The position numbers and the translations under genes were made by a program. Shown one piece after another: positions 1,417-15,360 of a stretch of 64,000 nt of DNA (position 1 is the stretch's first letter; every line of letters starts with the position of its first letter). The stretch comes from Bacillota bacterium (GTDB lineage Bacteria; Bacillota; UBA5301), in contig JACDOJ010000002.1 of the NCBI GenBank assembly GCA_017656135.1, positions 1 to 64,000 of the forward strand. The letters are read 5' to 3'. The notes beneath the pieces are model-generated. The model saw only the letters and a list, made by a program, of their open reading frames with translations, did not search any database and was not told the DNA's origin.

Positions 1417-1908
1417 TTGGATACCATGAAACTGCTCTATGTTGTCACCGCCGGCCTTCTCATTCTCTCAGCCCTGGCTGACCGGGGTAAGACCTATCAG
1501 GCTTTGAAAGTGGCCTGGAAAAGGTTTGCTAAGATTTTTCCGTCCTTTTTGACGATGCTGATATTTGTATCCATCCTGACTTATTTGGTTCCCAACGAAC
1601 TCATAGTGCGCTACTTAGGAGGTGCCGGCAACTGGGTTGGCCTCGCCTTAGCCTCCCTGTTCGGTTCCATTACCCTGATGCCCGGTTTTATCGCTTTCCC
1701 TTTGAGCGGCCTCTTGCTTAAACAGGGTGTCAGCTACATGACGATTTCGGCCTTCACCACAACCTTGATGATGGTAGGGGTTTTAACCTTTCCGGTGGAA
1801 CAGAAGTATTTTGGAACCAGGGCCGCCTTTTTGCGCAATCTGGCCAGCCTCTTGGTGGCTGTAGTCGTGGCTCTTTGCATCGGTATAGTTTATGGGGAGG
1901 TCTTTTAG
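1417..1908 (+). CDS. Permease, first half (UPF0718/DUF318-type, split)
   Basis: 163-residue membrane protein with about four to five hydrophobic segments and a central glycine/proline-rich 'GSITLMPGFIAFPLSG' motif, the repeat unit of the COG0701 predicted permease family. In many bacteria this is one protein with two such halves; here the two halves are separate adjacent genes (next gene at 1909). Substrate unknown. The annotated TTG 1417 has no ribosome site at normal distance: GGAGGG is at 1388-1393, 23 nt upstream, and only non-canonical codons (ATC 1399, GTC 1402) lie in frame at good spacing. The true start is therefore uncertain. Confidence 0.75.
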   Translation: MDTMKLLYVVTAGLLILSALADRGKTYQALKVAWKRFAKIFPSFLTMLIFVSILTYLVPNELIVRYLGGAGNWVGLALASLFGSITLMPGFIAFPLSGLLLKQGVSYMTISAFTTTLMMVGVLTFPVEQKYFGTRAAFLRNLASLLVAVVVALCIGIVYGEVF

Positions 1909-2415
1909 GTGAAGCTGAACAAAGTGTTGATCCCTGCTTTTCTATTGGCCGTTTCCGCCTCGTATCTGGTGGGGTTTGAACCAGGCCAGGAGGTCGGACG
2001 AAACCTCTTCACCTTTTTCCTTGACATGGCCAAGGTCTTGCCCTGTGCCTTTATTCTGATTGGTCTTTTTGAAACCTGGGTCAAGAGCGAGACCGTGGAG
2101 AAGATCATGGGTGATGCCACTGGCTTCAAGGGTTATCTCAGTGCCATTTTACTGGCGGCTACCACGGTGGGCGGTGTTTACGTGGCCTTTCCGGTGGCCT
2201 ACTCCCTGCGCCAGAAAGGGGCCAGTCTGGTTAACATCTTCATTTATCTGGGAGCTTCGGCGATAGTGCGGATTCCGATGACTACCTTTGAAGCTTCCTT
2301 TCTGGGGTTAAAGTTCACTCTGATCAGGCTGGTGGTTTCCCTTCCCTTGGTCATTGTCTCCTCGATTCTTCTCGGCAGCTACTTTGAAAAGCGGGTCCGC
2401 TTCCTTCCTCTCTAG
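1909..2415 (+). CDS. Permease, second half (UPF0718/DUF318-type, split)
   Basis: 168-residue membrane protein starting at GTG 1909, directly after the TAG of the first half, so the pair is translationally coupled (GGGGAGG just upstream). It repeats the same architecture with the motif 'ATTVGGVYVAFPVAYSL' in the position where the first half has 'GSITLMPGFIAFPLSG', as expected for an internally duplicated permease split into two chains. About five hydrophobic stretches. The two probably assemble as a heterodimer in the membrane. Substrate not deducible from the sequence. Confidence 0.75.
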   Translation: MKLNKVLIPAFLLAVSASYLVGFEPGQEVGRNLFTFFLDMAKVLPCAFILIGLFETWVKSETVEKIMGDATGFKGYLSAILLAATTVGGVYVAFPVAYSLRQKGASLVNIFIYLGASAIVRIPMTTFEASFLGLKFTLIRLVVSLPLVIVSSILLGSYFEKRVRFLPL

Positions 2416-2555
2416 AGGTATTCTAGGCGTACTATGGAAAATGATAAGTGTGGAGAGGCAGGGAGGGGAGAATTTCAACCGGACCTTTCAGGTCTGACCA
2501 GTGCGCTGCACGTAATAGAGTCCCTTGCCGTAGAGGTCAAGTGAACATACTTTAG

Positions 2556-3479
2556 GTGGTGCTGGATTTGAAACAAAACAAAGATATTGCCTTACTCTTA
2601 GCTCTGGCACTCCTAGTTACTATTACGCCTACAGCTGAGGCAGATGAGATGACTGCCGCCAAGTGGAGCGGGATTAAGGGAATAGTGGTGAGCGCCCAAG
2701 ATTCCAATGACGAGAGATTAGGGGAGTACCTCCAAGACGTGGCCTTTGTGGAATTAAGGAGTAAGCTCCCCGGCCTCGAGGTAACTACTGATACCACCAG
2801 GCTGGCCGAGGGCTACTTCTTGGTTGACATCAGTGTTACCAGAGACGACTTGGCCGGAGGCTATTGGTACGGGTCTCTGGAACTGGAAGTGGCCCGGATG
2901 GTTACTACCAAGGACTTGAAGATCTTTCCGGCGGTTATTTACTCCGACGGTTTCATCTTTCACTTTGCAGAATCATCGCTCAGAAGTGAATTTAAAGAGG
3001 CTGTTGAGGAACTAATCCTTAACATGGCCAAAGAGTATTACCAGTACGCCGAAACAACGGGGACTGGGTTAAGCCTGGATCAGCTGATTCGAAGGGGCGA
3101 CCAGGCTTACGACAACGGAGACTATGAGCGAGCTATTTTTTACTACGAAAAGGCCTTGAGCATCAATCCGAATCTGGTGGCGACTCTGGTGGATCTTGGC
3201 AACTGTTACTGGTTTCGGCAGCCGTCTGATCCTAAGAAAGCCATTGAGCTGTTTGATAAGGCCATTGAGCTGGATCCAGAGTTCATCAATGCCTACTTTA
3301 ACAAAGGTATTGTCTTGCACTACGGTTTGAACAGGCCTGCTGAAGCCATCCGCTGTTGGGAGAAGGTGTTGGCTTTAGACCCACCCCAAGAGTACGTGGA
3401 AACCATTAAATACGACCTCATACCGGAAGCTCAGGCGGTTTTGGAGGAGATAATCGGCAGCGAGACCTGCACGTTGTAG
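2556..3479 (+). CDS. Secreted TPR-repeat protein
   Basis: About 303-307 residues. The N-terminus has a basic start, a long leucine/alanine hydrophobic run and a likely signal-peptidase site near AEADE, so it is probably exported; there is no lipobox cysteine. Residues 30-165 form a domain I do not recognise. From about residue 170 there are three TPR-like units (for example 'GDQAYDNGDYERAIFYYEKA' and 'AIELFDKAIELDPEFINAYF'). Three in-frame starts are possible: GTG 2556, GTG 2559 and TTG 2568, the last with AGGTGG at 2554-2559. The gene abuts the remains of a DMT transporter, suggesting a deletion or insertion junction at its 3' end. Confidence 0.7.
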   Translation: MVLDLKQNKDIALLLALALLVTITPTAEADEMTAAKWSGIKGIVVSAQDSNDERLGEYLQDVAFVELRSKLPGLEVTTDTTRLAEGYFLVDISVTRDDLAGGYWYGSLELEVARMVTTKDLKIFPAVIYSDGFIFHFAESSLRSEFKEAVEELILNMAKEYYQYAETTGTGLSLDQLIRRGDQAYDNGDYERAIFYYEKALSINPNLVATLVDLGNCYWFRQPSDPKKAIELFDKAIELDPEFINAYFNKGIVLHYGLNRPAEAIRCWEKVLALDPPQEYVETIKYDLIPEAQAVLEEIIGSETCTL

Positions 3480-3808
3480 GAAATATCGAAGCCACTTTCG
3501 TTTCTTTTGTTGTTGGAGGTGTAGCAGTAGTCTCTTGACCATCTTCGCAGGAAATGGAGACTTGCGCCTGGTTACTCAGGTGCCGCCCTATCTCTTCCTG
3601 GGAGGGCTCTTTGACGTAGTTATTGTCTTTTCCGTCGTATCGGCGGTGCAGACCCTGGGGATTAACCTTGATGATTATCGGGCAGTTGGTTACGGTGCTC
3701 TTAATTGACCACTTTGGCCTCTTTGGAACACTGCGTATACCCGTGGATTGGCTGTGTTTCTTTGGAGTGCTTTTACTGGTAGCTGGGGCCCGCTTGATTA
3801 TCAAGTGA
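3479..3808 (+). pseudogene. Decayed DMT-family transporter (YdcZ/DUF606) remnant
   Basis: Three successive frames give one continuous DUF606-like protein. Frame from 3479: 'GNIEATFVSFVVGGVAVVS' then TGA. Frame of 3541-3660: 'VTQVPPYLFLGGLF' and 'VFSVVSAVQTLG'. Frame of 3670-3808: 'MIIGQLVTVLLIDHFGLFG' to 'GVLLLVAGARLIIK'. The order matches the family (SFxVG, P-x(2)-L-x-GG-L, GQ-x(5)-L-x-DHFGLFG), but at least two frameshifts (near 3533 and 3660) break it, and the N-terminal helix is missing because the preceding gene ends exactly there. The last 61 codons alone form an open frame but are not a functional protein. Confidence 0.75.
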
Positions 3809-3864
3809 GTGATAAACGTGACTGCTTTCAATTATTGGGCCTTTCTTTTTACCGTCCATCCCCT

Positions 3865-5160
3865 CTAGTCCATTTTATCCGCAAAGGCATCCAGGTGCAG
3901 TAAGGCAAGGCAGCTCAAGCCTACTAAAACCGCGACTGCAGTAAACACCCAGAGATAACCGGCGCTGGAAAAGAATCCTGCCGCGTCAGAAGAGAAGAAG
4001 GAGAGCAGGGCGCCGGTTCCCCACTGGAAAATGATGACTCCGGTAAACGTGAAAAGGTTCATAGCTCCAAAAAGTGCTCCACCCCGCCCCTTGGTAGCGA
4101 TATCATTAACGCCGGCGGTGAGATGATCATGACTGATCCCGGCGCTGGCGCCAAGCAGGAAACCCAATACTCCTACGACTACCAGTGGCCAGTGCAGGGC
4201 GATGGCCGTAACGAGAACAATATAGGTTGCGGCATAGGCCAGGGTGGCTCCGCTGATGGCAGCCTTCCTCTGGGAGGGAGATGGGGCCAGGTGACCTCCG
4301 ATGTAATTGCCTACCATCACGCCAATACCGATAAAGGTGGCCCAGAACCTGGCAGATGCCTGTTGGACACTGTAGGCCGACTGAAACCAGGAAACCGCCC
4401 ATAAACCTTGTAAAGCCAGTAAAGAGCCAAGAGAGGTAGCCCAGATGATGCTCATTGACCTCAGCTGTCGTGAACAGAGAATAAGCGTAAAGGCATCCTG
4501 CAGCTGCCTCCAGATACCGTGGATGGTGACAGCGCTGTACTGAATTCTGTTGGCCACAGGATCACTGTCGCGGGTGTAGATCAATAGCATGGCCAGGGTC
4601 AAGTTCAAGCAGGCCAAGGCCGTAAATACCGCAAATCGCCCCCAGACATCCAGTGCTGCACCCAAGGGGGTAACAGATGCCACTGCTCCCAGGTTGCCGA
4701 CAGTGTAGGTTATTCCGGAGAAAAAGGCATAGCGCTGCTTTGGAAAAGACTCTGCTTGATAGACCAAGACCCCTGATAACATCGGCGCCAAGCCTAGTCC
4801 AGTCAACAGGCGTCCCAGGGCAATTGCCAGAGGGTTGGCCCCTAGAGCAAAAAGGCCGGCACCAACTGCTGTGACAGTTATGCCGGCAGAGACCACTCTG
4901 GTCGGTCCGAAGCGGTCATTCAGTGCCCCGCTGACCGGTTGCATTAGCGCATAGGCATAAAAATAGAGGCTTGAAATGAATCCGGTTAAAGAAGCGCTCA
5001 ACTTCCAATCCGCTGCCAGCTGGGGCAAGACCACCGAGGCCGATACCCTAAAGAAATAGGAGAAGAAATAGGCGCCAACTAAAAGCAGAAAGGTCAGATA
5101 GGTGGATAAAGCAGTTGGTTTATTGATTTTGGTTTGAACTCCGGAGGGTTCTGAACACAT
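3865..5160 (-). CDS. Major facilitator superfamily transporter
   Basis: Inner-membrane secondary transporter with about 12 hydrophobic segments and the MFS signature 'GALNDRFGPTRVV' in the loop between helices 2 and 3. The start chosen is ATG 5160 (431 residues), because the 30 residues added by the upstream ATG 5250 are polar, lack a ribosome site and precede the first membrane helix. A weak promoter (TTGACT 5275-5270, TACAAT 5254-5249, 15-bp spacing) would also place transcription start downstream of the longer start. Substrate not evident. Single gene on the minus strand, divergent from the thiamine operon. Confidence 0.8.
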   Translation of the reverse strand: MCSEPSGVQTKINKPTALSTYLTFLLLVGAYFFSYFFRVSASVVLPQLAADWKLSASLTGFISSLYFYAYALMQPVSGALNDRFGPTRVVSAGITVTAVGAGLFALGANPLAIALGRLLTGLGLAPMLSGVLVYQAESFPKQRYAFFSGITYTVGNLGAVASVTPLGAALDVWGRFAVFTALACLNLTLAMLLIYTRDSDPVANRIQYSAVTIHGIWRQLQDAFTLILCSRQLRSMSIIWATSLGSLLALQGLWAVSWFQSAYSVQQASARFWATFIGIGVMVGNYIGGHLAPSPSQRKAAISGATLAYAATYIVLVTAIALHWPLVVVGVLGFLLGASAGISHDHLTAGVNDIATKGRGGALFGAMNLFTFTGVIIFQWGTGALLSFFSSDAAGFFSSAGYLWVFTAVAVLVGLSCLALLHLDAFADKMD

Positions 5161-8472: not shown

Positions 8473-8973
8473 GTGAACGCACAAACTATTAATGCCTTTT
8501 TAGCTGCTACCACCAGGGTATTCAAGCAATTTTGCAACTACGAGATTACCATGCTTAGGGATGAAATCGCCCTACGTAAGTCTCCGATTAAACTCTACGA
8601 GATAAATGTGCACGTTGGCATCGTCGGCGATCTCAACGGAGTGGTTTACTATAGTTTTCCGCCGGATGTAGCGGCCCAGATTGCTTCTTTAATGACCGGT
8701 TTGAACAGCTACGAAGACGGCCAACTGAGCGAGCTGGCTAAAAGTGCCTTATGTGAGCTCTGTAACATAATCAGCGGTCAGGCGGCCATCGAGCTCAGCA
8801 ATGACGGTTATCGTCTGGACCTCAGCCCACCCTCTCTCTTCACCGGGCACGGGGTGTTGACCTCCAGCTTCCACGGCTACCTTTTGGGCATCCCCATGCA
8901 GACGCCTGTGGGTAAGTTCGAGATCGATGTCGCTTTGAGCGAGGATAAGAGCCTAGCAACTCGGAGTAAATAG
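8473..8973 (+). CDS. cheX: CheX-like chemotaxis phosphatase domain protein
   Basis: 166-residue single-domain protein of the CheX/CheC class, which dephosphorylates CheY-P. The helix 'LSELAKSALCELCNIISGQAAIEL' carries the conserved E-x2-N active-site pattern (E and N in 'ELCNIISG'), and 'LYEINVHVGIVGDLNGVVYYSF' is the characteristic first strand pair. GTG 8473 follows AAAGGAGAGA. No other chemotaxis genes are nearby; it sits just 8 nt before the recJ fusion, so it may work with a distant CheY or another response regulator. Confidence 0.8.
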   Translation: MNAQTINAFLAATTRVFKQFCNYEITMLRDEIALRKSPIKLYEINVHVGIVGDLNGVVYYSFPPDVAAQIASLMTGLNSYEDGQLSELAKSALCELCNIISGQAAIELSNDGYRLDLSPPSLFTGHGVLTSSFHGYLLGIPMQTPVGKFEIDVALSEDKSLATRSK

Positions 8974-8981
8974 GGTCCGTC

Positions 8982-11900
8982 ATGACAACTCTCACTACTC
9001 CCACCAAGGTCAAGTGGATCTTTCCAGATGAGCAGGTGGACCAGACCGAGCTGGACCGCTTGGTTAAGGCCACCGGTGCCAGCCGTCTCACGGTGGAGAT
9101 CCTCTACCGCAGGGGCTTTTGCACCTCAGAGGAGATTAAAAGGTTTCTGGCTCCTGATCAGAGCCAATTACACGACCCCCGGCTGCTTCCGGGGGTTTCG
9201 CAAGCTATCGAGCGGGTTCTGGCGGCCCAAAGAAGCGGCGAACCGGTGGTGGTCTACGGTGACTACGATTGTGACGGGATCACCAGTACCTATACAATGC
9301 TTCAGGTTTTGAGGGCCCTGGGGATAGCTGCCGACTACTACATTCCCAACCGGCTGGATGAAGGCTACGGGTTGAACGCTGAGGCGGTGACGAAACTTGC
9401 CGAAAAGTACAGCCTAATGATCACCGTGGACTCTGGTATCACTGCCTGCCGGGAGGTGGAGTTGGCCAACAGCTTAGGTTTGGATGTCATCATCACCGAT
9501 CACCACACCCCAGGCGAGGAGCTTCCTCCTGCTCTGGCGGTGATCAACCCGAAAATCGCCGAAAGCAAATACCCCTTCCCAGAGCTGGCCGGAGTCGGAG
9601 TGGCCTACAAGGTGGCCCAGGCTCTCTGGGAGGCGGCCCAACCGGATCTTCCTGTTCCTCTTTCCCCGGCAGTGGTCATGCTGGGCACCGTCGCTGATAT
9701 CGTTCCGTTAGTTGATGAAAACCGCATCATCGTTGCCCAGGGTTTGGCCAACTTGCCTGCCACCGATAACCTTGGGCTTAAGGCGTTGATCCAGGAAGCC
9801 GGGAAAAACCCTGCTGAGGTCACCGCCGGCCAGGTTGCCTTCAACCTGGCCCCCCGCATCAATGCTGCCGGCCGGCTGGGCCAGGCTGATCTGGCTCTCC
9901 AGCTCCTGCTCTGCACCGATCAGACTGAGGCTTTTCGGATCGCCCGTAAGCTCTCACAGCTCAACGCCAAGAGGCAGTCCATTGAGGAGGAGATCCTGGC
10001 CGAGGCGGTTAAGGCGGTGGAGGAGACCTGGCAGCCGGAGGATAAAGCCATTGTGGTGGCCGGCGAGGGCTGGCACAGCGGCGTGGTGGGCATAGTCGCT
10101 GCTAGACTCGTGGAGCTCTACTCCCGGCCCAGCGTAGTCATCACCCTGGAGGGGGACGAGGGTCACGGCTCCGCCCGGAGTGTCCCGGGCGTCAATATCT
10201 ATGATGCTTTGAGCCGGTGTTCCCACCTCTTGTTGGGTTTCGGCGGGCACAGTGGAGCGGCCGGTCTCAGCATCCACAGGGAGAAAGTGGGAGAGCTACG
10301 CCAGGAGTTCTGCCGGGTCGTCGACGAGATGATCAGCGCCGAAGATCTGGTTCCGCAGCTGGTCATTGATGCTGAGGCCACACTTGAGGATATCACTGAG
10401 CAGCTGGTCAACGAATACGCCGCTCTAGAACCCTTTGGCTATGGTAATCCTAAACCGGTTTTGGCTATCCGAGGTCTCCAGCTGCAGGAAGTGCGGAAAG
10501 TGGGGCACAGCAATGATCACCTTAAACTTACTGTTGCCCAAGGCAACACGATCTGTGATGCCATTGGTTTCAGTCTAGGTGCCTGGGCCGATATTTTGGA
10601 CTGGTACTGCGGCCCGGTGGATCTGGCTTTTACTCCGGAGATCAACCAGTGGCGGGGCCAGAAGAACATCCAGCTTCAGCTTAAAGACGTTCGGATTCCC
10701 GAGGAAGAGATCTCCCCGGTGGACCGGCTCTTCATCGACGAAACCGCTGCCACTACCGACCCCTATGCCTCCATCGGCGCTGCCCAGGAGTTCTATACAA
10801 AGATAGTAGGTGTTACTTTTGAGGACCGCCAGGAAGTGGTCTCTTCTTTACGGAGCGGTCAAAAGCTCAAGCTGGTCCGGGAGGTGGACAACCCCCATGA
10901 CCCCAATGCCATCGCCGTCACCACCCTGGACGGTAAGCAAGTCGGCTACTTAAGAAGGGGCATTGCTAAGCACCTGGCTCCCCTCTTAGACGGCGAAACC
11001 GGTTATGAGGCCACCGTCTCCCAGGTCACCGGCGGGGGAGAAGGAAAGTCTTTGGGAGTCAATGTCTTTGTCCGCAAAGAGGAGGACCCTGAGGAGTACC
11101 TGCGCTGGCTCGCGGGAAAGGACACCCGCCGGAGGCTGACTGGGCTCCCTGATGAGGAGCTAAAAACCGCCATCAGCCGGGCGATCATCGGAGAACACTC
11201 TTACCACCCAAAACAGGCTGAGGCCTTAGAGGCCTTGCAAAGGGGAGCCAACACCCTCCTTATAATGGGAACCGGCCGGGGGAAATCCGCTGTTTTCCAG
11301 TCCATGGCAGCCTATAAGGCCCTACGCCACCGACAGGCCACGGTGATCATCTACCCCCTCAGGGCTTTGGTCAACGACCAGCTCCGTTCAATGCAGGCCA
11401 AGCTGGCACCCCTGGGAATCAGAGTTCTAAAAGCCACTGGTTCCCTGACCACCCGAGAGAGGGAGGAGCTGAACACGGCCCTCCACCTTGGCGAGGCCGA
11501 CGTCCTTCTGGCCACTCCGGAGTTTGTCCAGCGCAACCTGGCTCAGCACCCTGGGCTCCTCTCCCGCCTAGGCCTTTTTGTGGTGGATGAGAGTCACCAC
11601 ATCGGTAGGCTGAACTCCCAACGTTCCGCTTACCGAAGTCTGGACAGGCTTAGAGAGCAGTTGGGCAATCCTTTGACCCTGGCGGTGACGGCTACCGCTG
11701 ATGATCAGGTGGCAGAGGCCATCATTCAAGCCCTCTCCATTGACACGGTGATTGTGGATCCCCATATCCGGGCCAACCTCTCAGTGGTCGATCAGAGGGG
11801 GCTGACTGAGGGAGCCAAGTTTGCCTACCTGCTGGATCTAGTGAAAGAAGGGGAGAAGGCCATCATCTATGTGAACAGCCGTGAAGGGGCCACCAACCTC

Positions 11901-12629
11901 TCCCGGGACCTTCGTAGGGCCCTTAGGCACTTGAAGGACCGGATCGCCTTTTACCACGGCGGCCTCACCAACAGCCAGCGGGTCATGGTGGAGGAAATGT
12001 TCGCTGTAGGCTCACTGCGTACTGTGGTTTCCACCAGTGCCTTTGGTGAGGGGGTGGATATCCCTGATATCCGCCATGTTCTTCACTACCACCTGACCTT
12101 TAACTTCACCGACTTCAACCAGCAGAGCGGACGGGCCGGCCGGGACGGCAAGCCGGCGGCAATCCATCTCCTTTACAACCAAGAAGATGTGGAGATTAAC
12201 CGTTTCATTTTAAGGTCCAAGGCGCCGGACCGGGATGTGCTGGCAGCCTTGTACCGCGCCCTTATTCGCAACGCCGACCAAGAGGGCCGGGTCAGCCTCA
12301 CCAATGCCGAGCTGGCCGAGGTGATGCAGGGCCTGCTCAAAGGGGCCGGAGAGTTCTTCCGCCCCTCACCGGAGACGGTTTCTGCAGCCTTAGGGGTCCT
12401 CTATGAGTTGGGGCTCATCGACCGGGAGAAGACCGGAAGCTCCCGGGTGATCTACCTGGCTCCCCGCCCCGAGGGCAAGCTAGACTTAAATGATTCAGTC
12501 AGGTATAATGAAGGTATTGTGGAAAAAGAGGTTTTTGAAGAGTTTCAAAAGTGGGCACTCTGTGCATCCAAGGAGGAAATATTATCCCTGATAAATAAGC
12601 CCATATATCCAGTTCACCTGGAAAGATAG
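8982..12629 (+). CDS. recJ: RecJ exonuclease-HIRAN-RecQ-like helicase fusion
   Basis: 1215 residues in one open frame, far longer than ordinary RecJ (550-800). Order: RecJ DHH core with GDYDCDG (93-99) and DHH (173-175), DHHA1 part with GGHSGAAG near 421, and an OB-like region to about 590. Then a HIRAN domain (about 607-695, 'IVGVTF', 'NPHDPNAIAV', 'GYLRRGIAKHLAPLL'), then a superfamily 2 helicase with Walker A MGTGRGKS (762-769), Walker B DESHH (869-873), 'TATADD', and motif VI QQSGRAGRDG (1047-1056), and a winged-helix-like tail. RecJ degrades 5' single strands; RecQ-family helicases unwind for it, so this fuses partners in RecF-type repair. HIRAN binds 3' ends or stalled forks in other proteins. 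Position before apt and relA matches the usual recJ locus. Confidence 0.9.
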   Translation: MTTLTTPTKVKWIFPDEQVDQTELDRLVKATGASRLTVEILYRRGFCTSEEIKRFLAPDQSQLHDPRLLPGVSQAIERVLAAQRSGEPVVVYGDYDCDGITSTYTMLQVLRALGIAADYYIPNRLDEGYGLNAEAVTKLAEKYSLMITVDSGITACREVELANSLGLDVIITDHHTPGEELPPALAVINPKIAESKYPFPELAGVGVAYKVAQALWEAAQPDLPVPLSPAVVMLGTVADIVPLVDENRIIVAQGLANLPATDNLGLKALIQEAGKNPAEVTAGQVAFNLAPRINAAGRLGQADLALQLLLCTDQTEAFRIARKLSQLNAKRQSIEEEILAEAVKAVEETWQPEDKAIVVAGEGWHSGVVGIVAARLVELYSRPSVVITLEGDEGHGSARSVPGVNIYDALSRCSHLLLGFGGHSGAAGLSIHREKVGELRQEFCRVVDEMISAEDLVPQLVIDAEATLEDITEQLVNEYAALEPFGYGNPKPVLAIRGLQLQEVRKVGHSNDHLKLTVAQGNTICDAIGFSLGAWADILDWYCGPVDLAFTPEINQWRGQKNIQLQLKDVRIPEEEISPVDRLFIDETAATTDPYASIGAAQEFYTKIVGVTFEDRQEVVSSLRSGQKLKLVREVDNPHDPNAIAVTTLDGKQVGYLRRGIAKHLAPLLDGETGYEATVSQVTGGGEGKSLGVNVFVRKEEDPEEYLRWLAGKDTRRRLTGLPDEELKTAISRAIIGEHSYHPKQAEALEALQRGANTLLIMGTGRGKSAVFQSMAAYKALRHRQATVIIYPLRALVNDQLRSMQAKLAPLGIRVLKATGSLTTREREELNTALHLGEADVLLATPEFVQRNLAQHPGLLSRLGLFVVDESHHIGRLNSQRSAYRSLDRLREQLGNPLTLAVTATADDQVAEAIIQALSIDTVIVDPHIRANLSVVDQRGLTEGAKFAYLLDLVKEGEKAIIYVNSREGATNLSRDLRRALRHLKDRIAFYHGGLTNSQRVMVEEMFAVGSLRTVVSTSAFGEGVDIPDIRHVLHYHLTFNFTDFNQQSGRAGRDGKPAAIHLLYNQEDVEINRFILRSKAPDRDVLAALYRALIRNADQEGRVSLTNAELAEVMQGLLKGAGEFFRPSPETVSAALGVLYELGLIDREKTGSSRVIYLAPRPEGKLDLNDSVRYNEGIVEKEVFEEFQKWALCASKEEILSLINKPIYPVHLER

Positions 12630-12642
12630 AGGAGGACGGAGC

Positions 12643-13167
12643 ATGGATTTGCGTGCGAAGATCAGAGAGATTCCGGATTTTCCAAAGCCGGGCATCAGTT
12701 TCAAGGATGTCACTACTCTCTTTAAGGATAGTGAGGCCCTGAGATACACTATCGACGAGTTGGCCAGGCAGTTTGAGGATCTGGAACCGGACATGATTAT
12801 AGGCGTGGAGTCCCGGGGTTTCATCTTAGGCGCTCCCTTGGCGTATAAGATGGGTACCGGGTTTGTGCTGGTCCGCAAGCCGGGTAAACTCCCGGCAGAG
12901 TGTGAACGGATCGAGTACGAGCTGGAGTACGGCAGTGACGCCCTGGAGATTCACTGTGACTCCTTGGAGCCGGGCCAGCGGGTTCTCATCATCGACGACC
13001 TTCTGGCCACCGGTGGGACCGTTGGCGCTGCCACCCAGCTAGTGAAGAAATTGGGGGCTAAGATCGTAGGTTACGGTTTCATCATTGAACTTACTCCTCT
13101 AGGTGGGCGCTCCAAATTGGATAAAGAGGCCCGAGTTGTCACTTTGGTTCAGTATGACGAAGACTAA
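12643..13167 (+). CDS. apt: Adenine phosphoribosyltransferase
   Basis: Salvages adenine: adenine plus PRPP gives AMP and pyrophosphate. 174 residues, full length. The PRPP-binding loop 'VLIIDDLLATGGT' and the N-terminal 'IPDFPKPGISFKD' and 'GVESRGFILGAPLA' motifs are present. AGAGGAGG precedes ATG 12643, 13 nt after the recJ fusion and 24 nt before relA, the standard recJ-apt-relA order of Firmicutes. Confidence 0.97.
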   Translation: MDLRAKIREIPDFPKPGISFKDVTTLFKDSEALRYTIDELARQFEDLEPDMIIGVESRGFILGAPLAYKMGTGFVLVRKPGKLPAECERIEYELEYGSDALEIHCDSLEPGQRVLIIDDLLATGGTVGAATQLVKKLGAKIVGYGFIIELTPLGGRSKLDKEARVVTLVQYDED

Positions 13168-13191: not shown

Positions 13192-15360
13192 TTGAGCGAA
13201 ACCGGGATTGACAGGCTGATAGCCAAGATAAAAGAATACAACCCGGATATCGATACCAACCTCATCCGGCGGGCTTACGAGTTTGCCGACAAGGCCCATG
13301 AAGGTCAAAAGCGGGAGTCAGGTGAGCCTTACGTGGACCACCCTTTAGAGGTGGCTATGCTCCTGGCTGAACAGGAGATGGACCAGGAAACTCTGATCGC
13401 AGGCTTGCTTCACGACGTTGTCGAGGATACCGACACTCCCCTGGAGACCGTGGAAGCCCAGTTTGGTCCCAACGTCGCCATGTTAGTGAATGGCGTCACC
13501 AAGCTGGGTCAGATTCCCACCCTTTCCAAAGAAGAACGCCAGGCGGAGAACCTGCGCAAAATGCTCTTGGCCATGGCCAAGGACCTCAGGGTCATTATCA
13601 TTAAGCTGGCGGACAGGCTCCACAATATGCGGACCCTCAAAGCCCTGCCCCCGGAGAGACAGCGTAAGGTTTCCAAAGAGACTTTGGAGATCTACTCACC
13701 CATTGCGCATAGGCTCGGCATGTGGCGAATAAAGTGGGAGCTGGAAGATTTAGCCCTGCGCTACCTGGAACCGAAGGAGTACTACAAACTGGTCGAGATG
13801 GTCAACGAAAAACTCCAGGAACGGCAGGGCTTTATCAATGAAGCCATCGCCAAGATTAGTGCCCGCTTGGACGAGCTAGGGATCAAGTATCACATTGAAG
13901 GCCGGCCTAAGCACTTCTACAGCATCTACAATAAGATGAAGAAACAGGGCAAGCAGTTTGACGAGATCTTTGACCTCATTGGTATCAGGGTCTTGGTGGA
14001 GACCGTCAAGGACTGCTACGCTGTGCTGGGCATTGTTCACGTGCTCTGGAAACCGATCCCCGGCCGGTTCAAAGACTACATTGCCATGCCTAAATCTAAT
14101 ATGTACCAGTCCCTGCATACTACCGTGGTGGGGGAAAACGGACGCTCGTTTGAGGTGCAGATCAGGACTTGGGAGATGCACCGGACTGCCGAGTACGGTG
14201 TGGCTGCCCACTGGAAGTATAAAGAAGGTAAAACCGGCACGGATGTGGAGTTCGAGAAGAAGGTCGCCTGGCTCAGGCAGCTCCTGGAATGGCAAAGAGA
14301 GACCAAAGACATTGACGACTTCATGGAAACCCTCCGCATCGATCTCTTCGAGGATGAGGTCTTTGTTTTTACGCCCAAAGGGGATGTGAAGACTTTACCC
14401 GCCGGCTCGACTCCGGTGGATTTCGCCTACAGCGTGCATACTGATATCGGTCACCATACAGTGGGGGCGAAGGTCAACGGCAAGATCGTACCGCTGGACT
14501 ACAAGCTGAAAAACGGCGAGTTTGTGGAGATCCTGACTTCCAAAAACGGCCGCCCCAGTCGGGACTGGCTGTCGATTGTGAAGACCTCCAAGGCCCGGTC
14601 CAAAATCCGCTCTTGGCTCAGAGAGCAGAACCGGGAGCGGATGATGCTTAAAGGCCGGGAGATTTTGGAGAGACACGCCCAAAAATACGGTTTCGACCTG
14701 GGTGAGTTTCTCAAAGAGGCCGATCTTGAGGAAGTGGCCCAAAAGAACGGGTATGCCAACTTTGATGATCTCCTGGCCAATGTAGGTTACGGTAAGGTCA
14801 CCGCGAATCAGGTGCTCTCCCGCTTGGTCGGGGAGGAGGAGTGGCGCAAAAAACAGCTGGAGTTGAAGCGCCAGTACCGTCAGAAAAAATTAGCGAGAAA
14901 GAGCACTAATAGAGCGGGGATCGGGGTCAAGGGCATCGACAATCCTCTGGTGCGCACGGCCAGGTGCTGTAACCCGGTTCCTGGAGATCCGATCATCGGC
15001 TACATTACCCGGGGCCGGGGGGTTTCCGTCCACCGGGCGGACTGCCCCAACATCTCTGAACTGAGTAAGGACCCAGAGCGCCAGATTGAGGTCTTTTGGA
15101 AGGAAAAACGGGAGGGCACTTATGCGGTGGAACTGGAAGTGGAAGCCGTCGACCGCAGACAGCTGCTCTCTGATGTCATTGATGCGGTTTCCAAAGCCGG
15201 TACTGGCATCGATGCTGTTAACGCCAGAACCACCAAAAACCACCTGGCGATCATCAACATTAAAGTTATCATCGCCGATGTGGAACACATGCAGAAAGTC
15301 ATTGAGGCCATCTCCAAGGTGGACGGGGTAATCCACGTCTGCCGCGCAAATCCTACGTAA
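13192..15360 (+). CDS. relA: Bifunctional (p)ppGpp synthetase/hydrolase (Rel)
   Basis: Makes and degrades the stringent-response alarmone. 722 residues with an intact HD hydrolase domain ('HEGQKRESGEPYVDHPLEVA', 'HDVVEDTD' near residue 74, 'KLADRLHNMRTL'), a synthetase domain around 235-345 ('FYSIYNKMKKQ', 'DLIGIRVLV', 'YQSLHTTV'), TGS ('VFTPKGDVKTLPAGSTPVDFAY'), a zinc-finger region and C-terminal ACT. Both active sites are conserved, so it is the bifunctional long Rel. Starts at TTG 13192 with CAGGAGT upstream. Confidence 0.97.
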   Translation: MSETGIDRLIAKIKEYNPDIDTNLIRRAYEFADKAHEGQKRESGEPYVDHPLEVAMLLAEQEMDQETLIAGLLHDVVEDTDTPLETVEAQFGPNVAMLVNGVTKLGQIPTLSKEERQAENLRKMLLAMAKDLRVIIIKLADRLHNMRTLKALPPERQRKVSKETLEIYSPIAHRLGMWRIKWELEDLALRYLEPKEYYKLVEMVNEKLQERQGFINEAIAKISARLDELGIKYHIEGRPKHFYSIYNKMKKQGKQFDEIFDLIGIRVLVETVKDCYAVLGIVHVLWKPIPGRFKDYIAMPKSNMYQSLHTTVVGENGRSFEVQIRTWEMHRTAEYGVAAHWKYKEGKTGTDVEFEKKVAWLRQLLEWQRETKDIDDFMETLRIDLFEDEVFVFTPKGDVKTLPAGSTPVDFAYSVHTDIGHHTVGAKVNGKIVPLDYKLKNGEFVEILTSKNGRPSRDWLSIVKTSKARSKIRSWLREQNRERMMLKGREILERHAQKYGFDLGEFLKEADLEEVAQKNGYANFDDLLANVGYGKVTANQVLSRLVGEEEWRKKQLELKRQYRQKKLARKSTNRAGIGVKGIDNPLVRTARCCNPVPGDPIIGYITRGRGVSVHRADCPNISELSKDPERQIEVFWKEKREGTYAVELEVEAVDRRQLLSDVIDAVSKAGTGIDAVNARTTKNHLAIINIKVIIADVEHMQKVIEAISKVDGVIHVCRANPT

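Follow-up and report, generated by a model that had tools for sequence, protein, structure and literature searches.

A single-chain RecJ–HIRAN–RecQ-like helicase at the recJ locus of a Bacillota bacterium and its apparent remnants in other Bacillota RecJ proteins

Introduction

RecJ digests 5'-ended single-stranded DNA (ssDNA), and RecQ opens the duplex for RecJ (PMC4846377, PMC11442139). The two proteins constitute the textbook 5'-end resection pair of the RecF pathway; their cooperation has been described as unclear (PMC11442139). Here, we analyze the first 64,000 nucleotides (forward strand; hereafter the window) of contig JACDOJ010000002.1 from a Bacillota bacterium of the UBA5301 lineage (assembly GCA_017656135.1), in which a single gene encodes RecJ, a HIRAN domain, and a RecQ-like superfamily 2 (SF2) helicase. 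This natural single-chain version makes coupling of the two enzymes directly testable, because one point mutation per activity can be placed in the same molecule.

Helicase-nuclease fusions and proteins that join HIRAN to an SF2 motor are already known. WRN, like the fusion described here, carries an exonuclease and a RecQ-type helicase in a single polypeptide. Its nuclease, however, is a 3'-5' exonuclease that is unrelated to RecJ and has the opposite polarity, and WRN is not known to contain a HIRAN domain. AddAB and RecBCD are helicase-nucleases for end resection and in that sense functional analogs of the fusion, but they are multi-subunit complexes whose SF1 helicase and nuclease are unrelated to those of the fusion. 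In HLTF and Rad5, HIRAN lies ahead of an SF2 motor as it does in the fusion; that motor belongs to a different SF2 subfamily (SWI/SNF translocases), and the proteins contain a RING domain and no nuclease. The HIRAN domain of HLTF acts in fork remodeling, and its residues Y72 and Y93 stack on bound DNA (PMC4666394). The C-terminal domain of Staphylococcus aureus RecJ, which corresponds by fold to the Pfam family PF10141, has been called non-conserved in a review. Searches of the literature, which leave out most subscription journals, yielded no paper on the joining of HIRAN to RecJ, on PF10141, or on a RecJ-RecQ fusion; the RecJ-HIRAN-helicase combination and the origin of PF10141 proposed below are not described in the papers searched.

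Architecture of the fusion protein

The fusion gene starts with ATG and encodes 1215 amino acids (aa) without an internal stop. Six Pfam domains, all far above their gathering cut-offs, occur along the chain in the order DHH, DHHA1, RecJ_OB, HIRAN, DEAD, and Helicase_C. Features of the gene are as follows.

8982..12629, + strand: recJ-HIRAN-helicase fusion gene, an open frame with six Pfam domains over cut-off
9246..9632, + strand: DHH nuclease domain (aa 89-217; Pfam PF01368, 3e-24), with GDYDCDG at 93-99 and DHH at 173-175
10044..10322, + strand: DHHA1 domain (aa 355-447; Pfam PF02272, 2.2e-13), with the GGH motif in GFGGHSGAAG at 419-428
10365..10688, + strand: RecJ OB domain, RecJ_OB (aa 462-569; Pfam PF17768, 6.4e-31)
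10788..11033, + strand: HIRAN domain (aa 603-684; Pfam PF08797, 1.3e-15)
11208..11717, + strand: helicase RecA1 or DEAD domain (aa 743-912; Pfam PF00270, 1.2e-25)
11265-11288, + strand: Walker A motif MGTGRGKS (aa 762-769), within the DEAD domain
11586-11600, + strand: DESHH (aa 869-873), within the DEAD domain
11817..12149, + strand: helicase RecA2 or Helicase_C domain (aa 946-1056; Pfam PF00271, 2.3e-25)
12120-12149, + strand: QQSGRAGRDG (aa 1047-1056), within the Helicase_C domain
12174..12626, + strand: C-terminal region (~aa 1065-1215), with APDRDVLAALY at 1081-1091, YELGLI at 1141-1146, and KLDLNDSVRY at 1166-1175

An earlier, sequence-only reading of the window had proposed one uninterrupted 1215-residue frame with RecJ, HIRAN, and helicase parts and had located DHH, MGTGRGKS, DESHH, and QQSGRAGRDG at the residues listed above. 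The open frame, the six domains, and the motif residues bear this out, and a complete RecJ-HIRAN-(RecQ-like SF2 helicase) fusion in one chain is confirmed. With the catalytic motifs of nuclease and helicase kept, both active sites are predicted to be complete.

The N-terminal half is RecJ by the NCBIfam model TIGR00644 (529 bits against a cut-off of 396.9), and its DHH, DHHA1, and RecJ_OB domains as well as the DHH and GGH motifs are all present. These 570 residues correspond to an ordinary RecJ (TIGR00644; structures 5f55 and 8y30) encoded at the canonical recJ locus, to which the fusion adds ~640 residues comprising HIRAN and an intact SF2 helicase. In a full-length structural model with a predicted local distance difference test (pLDDT) score of 79 and a predicted template modeling (pTM) score of 0.53, residues 1-560 superimpose on Deinococcus radiodurans RecJ (5f55; Z 54.0, 2.2 Å) and residues from about 709 to 1193 on RecQL5 (Z 21.6). 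An AlphaFold model of residues 925-1215 alone (pLDDT 88) fits RecA2 of the RecQ family (4tmu, Z 20.6 over 184 residues; RecQL4, Z 19.2 over 266 residues), and its C-terminal part is helical with a β hairpin and resembles a winged helix.

The helicase core is of the RecQ-type SF2 class with motifs I-VI intact, as judged from a motif table that sets it beside two RecQ proteins, and its nearest solved structures in sequence and fold are RecQL5, WRN, and RecQ. It shares with RecQ (TIGR00614, TIGR01389; 4tmu, 1oyw, RecQL5, WRN) the RecA1-RecA2 core with RecQ-like motifs. In contrast to RecQ, the fused helicase has a C-terminal region of its own and HIRAN ahead of it, and the protein falls below the cut-offs of the curated RecQ models (190.5 bits against 219.8 for TIGR00614; 184 against 640.2 for TIGR01389). 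No Pfam match to an HRDC or RecQ zinc domain was found in the fusion chain at E<=1, a missing match that counts as weak evidence since RecQ-type proteins without HRDC exist. Because the curated cut-offs are missed, we classify the helicase half by sequence as RecQ-like rather than RecQ. The designation "RecQ-class" in the sequence-only reading is thus upheld for the core and its nearest structures, but not for the family as the curated models define it. The HIRAN domain scores 57.4 bits against a gathering score of 24.7 for PF08797; its nearest solved relatives are the HLTF HIRAN chains 2mzn, 4xzf, and 4s0n (E about 4e-6).

Distribution and conservation of intact fusions

The source genome (1.9 Mb, 99% complete) is an 86-contig draft, which leaves room for the suspicion that an assembly or frame artefact joined recJ to a neighboring helicase gene. 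Many independent genomes, the single-contig genome G320 among them, contain the same architecture in frame, and every full-length fusion recovered has an open reading frame. A survey across Bacillota, a check that the sequence-only reading had suggested, identified the full-length fusion in 27 of 398 genomes and 10 family groups (count of full-length rows). It also occurs in named contigs from Firmicutes UBA5301, Orenia metallireducens, and Thermincola, which were identified with exact peptide patterns that reach close relatives only. These recurrences, together with the constraint on both halves described below, led us to reject an artefact, which has next to no chance of being correct.

Motifs 0, I, Ia, II, III, IV, V, and VI are kept in all 28 helicase halves counted intact in the motif table (26 fusions, the window protein, and the free-standing helicase L088) as well as in the divergent copy L084; for five additional fusions, the check was limited to motif II. 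The ratio of nonsynonymous to synonymous substitution rates (dN/dS) in close intact pairs was 0.075, 0.138, and 0.144 for the helicase half versus 0.098, 0.153, and 0.193, respectively, for the RecJ half. In these pairs, purifying selection acts on the helicase half no less strongly than on the RecJ half. The fusion is apparently a maintained, working architecture.

Within the source genome, the fusion is the sole RecJ. A search of that genome for a separate RecQ, another check raised by the sequence-only reading, found none, and the fusion is the only RecQ-like protein found there. The same genome encodes an AddA-like helicase.

Remnants of the helicase in other RecJ proteins

PF10141 (ssDNA-exonuc_C) is the tail of Bacilli RecJ; of 14 control genomes, those of B. 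subtilis and L. lactis alone matched it. The window protein has no PF10141 match over the gathering score, and its intact relative L011 has a sub-threshold match at 1070-1168. Among Bacillota RecJ proteins, the extension that follows RecJ_OB measures 640 residues, then 584, 510, 449, about 360-420, about 210, or none. A hidden Markov model (HMM) of 26 intact C-terminal parts detected the majority of the remaining RecJ extensions at E<1e-3, whereas the best of the shuffled controls (five shuffles per extension) reached only 5.9; RecQ profiles scored far below this HMM. The extensions of L118, L119, L127, L130, L131, and L132 did not reach significance in the single pass with this HMM, and those from Bacilli are tied to the fused helicase only through intermediates.

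A profile of 30 eroded extensions, built without any intact fusion, matched solved helicase RecA2 domains with E-values down to 2e-11. When the 21 most distant extensions were compared with RecA2 and the C-terminal region of the fusion, the match reached 99.9% (score 211); it was 90.7% (score 56) for RecQ and 98.4% for Bacilli RecJ tails, and reversed controls gave <=0.3% (0.2% for the fused RecA2 plus C-terminal region). The region beyond RecA2 is common to the remnants and the fusion, and RecQ is without it. We argue, by way of intermediate sequences, that the C-terminal region of the fusion is a homolog of that part of PF10141 which it has in common with Bacilli RecJ. PF10141 (B. subtilis; S. 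aureus 8y30) resembles this region in its position after RecJ_OB and in the colinear motifs DxRG, PxRDxxxxxY, ExL, and K-x-L-xx-SxxY, but it contains neither RecA1 nor ATPase motifs and is about 200 residues long, compared with 640 in the fusion. In L134, sub-threshold matches to Helicase_C (611-713) and PF10141 (660-848) overlap; L016 shows the same overlap.

The only solved Bacilli-type RecJ is that of S. aureus (8y30), which is close to Bacillus RecJ. This structure aligns to the full-length model from residue 1 to 1199 over 654 residues, whereas other RecJ structures align over about 520 and those without a tail stop near model residue 560. It was absent among the best 50 matches for the RecA2 fragment alone and appeared with the full-length model only.

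Most other Bacillota RecJ proteins appear to end in a smaller, catalytically dead form of the fused helicase, in a series graded down to PF10141. The profile searches, the agreement between trees, the constant gene order, and the overlap of Pfam matches lead us to propose a helicase origin for PF10141. The fusion thereby offers an origin for the tail domain of Bacillus and Staphylococcus RecJ. The sequence-only reading had recognized the three-part architecture but missed that most Bacillota RecJ proteins end in what appear to be its eroded remains.

Decay was examined at positions for which intact copies show a conservation of 95% or more. L105 retains 505 bits of helicase similarity, but its motifs I, II, III, V, and VI are altered, and conserved residues are lost mainly inside the motifs (24/41 motif positions versus 17/65 others, p=0.001). 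The same bias was seen in six further decayed copies (p between 0.0003 and 0.04). Of four control copies, three lost no motif residue, and the divergent L084 lost 6/41. This pattern indicates that decay strikes the ATPase motifs first. In a decayed pair, dN/dS was 0.293 for the extension and 0.124 for RecJ. The remnant probably is useful to the cell, because its extension, while evolving faster than RecJ, remains well under neutrality. The graded series, in which L105 keeps a nearly whole helicase scaffold with destroyed motifs, would constitute a natural record of an enzyme becoming a scaffold. The RecJ of genome G034 (L030) has a ~100-residue tail that matches only the fused-helicase region beyond RecA2, which suggests that this region can be retained alone.

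Trees and direction of change

Intact copies are dispersed over the RecJ-core tree, which requires 8 to 9 changes, and their grouping as a single clade is rejected by the approximately unbiased test (p-AU 2e-58). The helicase tree has the same main groups. L134, which retains only a remnant, is placed with the intact copies of families f55 and f123 by both halves (support 99 for RecJ, 98 for the helicase). L085 is nested with full support in a family of intact copies; it is full length but its helicase is dead. Wherever enough flank was available, intact, decayed, and Bacilli loci share the order recJ-apt/relA. The RecJ tree, used here without an inferred root, is weakly resolved in its deep branches.

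Could the tails of other Bacillota RecJ proteins instead be unrelated, or independently gained, RecA-like domains, with the intact fusion being recent and laterally spread? The weak direct similarity between Bacilli tails and the fused helicase, the poorly resolved deep branches, and the fact that counts of changes alone cannot separate losses from gains lend this view some weight. It is difficult to reconcile with a region beyond RecA2 that remnants share with the fusion and not with RecQ, with the agreement of the two trees and the rejection of a single intact clade, with constant synteny and a graded series of remnants, and with the nesting of L134 and L085 inside intact clades; we consider it quite improbable. 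The simplest reading is probably that of an old intact fusion that decayed repeatedly, with early lateral spread as the alternative. An active RecJ-HIRAN-helicase resection enzyme is likely to have been the ancestral RecJ of much of Bacillota.

L085 itself (1441-5004 in G298) is a recent pseudo-helicase, a full-length RecJ-HIRAN-helicase that has lost its helicase motifs in a family otherwise intact among the members sampled.

Proposed mechanism

The fusion is the cell's own recJ that appears to carry the complete old fusion, and its most likely role is that of a single-chain 5'-end resection enzyme. The suggestion of the sequence-only reading that the chain could recognize an end, unwind, and digest is plausible. 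In this model, HIRAN and the winged-helix-like C-terminal region would bind a DNA end or a junction of single- and double-stranded DNA. The helicase half would then move 3'-to-5' on one strand and open the duplex. The freed 5'-ended strand would be passed to the RecJ half, which would digest it 5'-to-3' and leave 3' ssDNA for RecA. We infer the ATPase and nuclease activities, the helicase polarity, the coupling of the two halves, and the HIRAN target, as well as an ancestral fusion in place of lateral spread.

The main rival to end resection is a role at forks or gaps, in which the helicase would be joined to RecJ mainly for co-recruitment and HIRAN would guide fork remodeling or gap enlargement at stalled forks or post-replication gaps. 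The relationship of the fusion HIRAN to that of HLTF, a fork-remodeling domain (PMC4666394), is consistent with such a role, and the AddA-like helicase of the same genome may already serve double-strand ends. We regard it as possible but doubtful, given that the fused layout mirrors the RecJ-RecQ pairing of RecF-pathway resection (PMC4846377, PMC11442139) and that the gene context offers no evidence specific to forks.

Several observations weigh against an end-resection enzyme whose remnants persist as RecJ tails. The pTM of 0.53 leaves the arrangement of the two halves in the full-length model unfixed, and the 3'-to-5' polarity is implied by RecQ similarity only. The HLTF stacking tyrosines Y72 and Y93 are replaced by F613 and H639 in the fusion (Y93 mapped by HMMER alignment, Y72 by hand), and this tyrosine pair of the HLTF-type pocket is not conserved. 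HLTF-like binding of 3' ends therefore cannot be assumed, and the HIRAN ligand in the fusion may differ from that of HLTF. The direct profile match between the Bacilli C-terminal domain and the fused helicase reaches only 60-88%; the link rests on intermediates and one structural alignment, that of 8y30, whose root-mean-square deviation of 20 Å indicates a correspondence of parts with a different domain layout. Moreover, the intact state does not track the absence of RecQ or AddAB. A full RecQ is also present in 11 of 26 intact carriers, and most have AddA-like proteins; the idea that the fused helicase simply replaces RecQ or AddAB is unsupported.

Neighboring genes and free-standing relatives

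The fusion gene lies at a canonical recJ-apt-relA locus, flanked by the following genes.

8473..8973, + strand: CheX/CheC-like open reading frame (ORF; Pfam CheX, 6e-14), directly upstream of the recJ fusion
12643..13167, + strand: apt, adenine phosphoribosyltransferase (named from its translation), found next after recJ at many loci of the intact, decayed, and Bacilli types
13192..15360, + strand: relA/spoT-type (p)ppGpp synthetase (named from its translation), which follows recJ in most loci, with or without apt

A free-standing protein of 648 aa in genome G152 (L129, 6843-8789 of G152:C1; the same as L088 and L142) consists of HIRAN and a RecQ-like helicase with all motifs intact. G152 thus holds both this intact helicase and the motif-dead, RecJ-fused helicase L105. 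The neighbors of the free-standing gene, as named from reading, are phage- or plasmid-like (ParM-like, SSB, and DndC/PAPS-reductase-like proteins), and the surrounding 58 kb region is catalogued in IMG/VR as a viral contig (a provirus of G152). An origin of the fused helicase from a mobile element was considered and set aside: although L088/L142 sits in a provirus, phage and plasmid collections gave only ~30% identical RecQ-type matches. A search among viral contigs for Bacilli-type RecJ found none. Separate from the RecJ fusion, three very long frames (1605 to 2161 aa; G017:C11:205520, G129:C47:51842, and G037:C51:5793) contain a RecQ-type helicase core.

The CheX/CheC-like phosphatase ORF ends 8 bases ahead of recJ and probably shares a transcript with the fusion. 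It is kept in two relatives of the window's family and, among the sampled loci, occurs upstream of recJ only in that family group.

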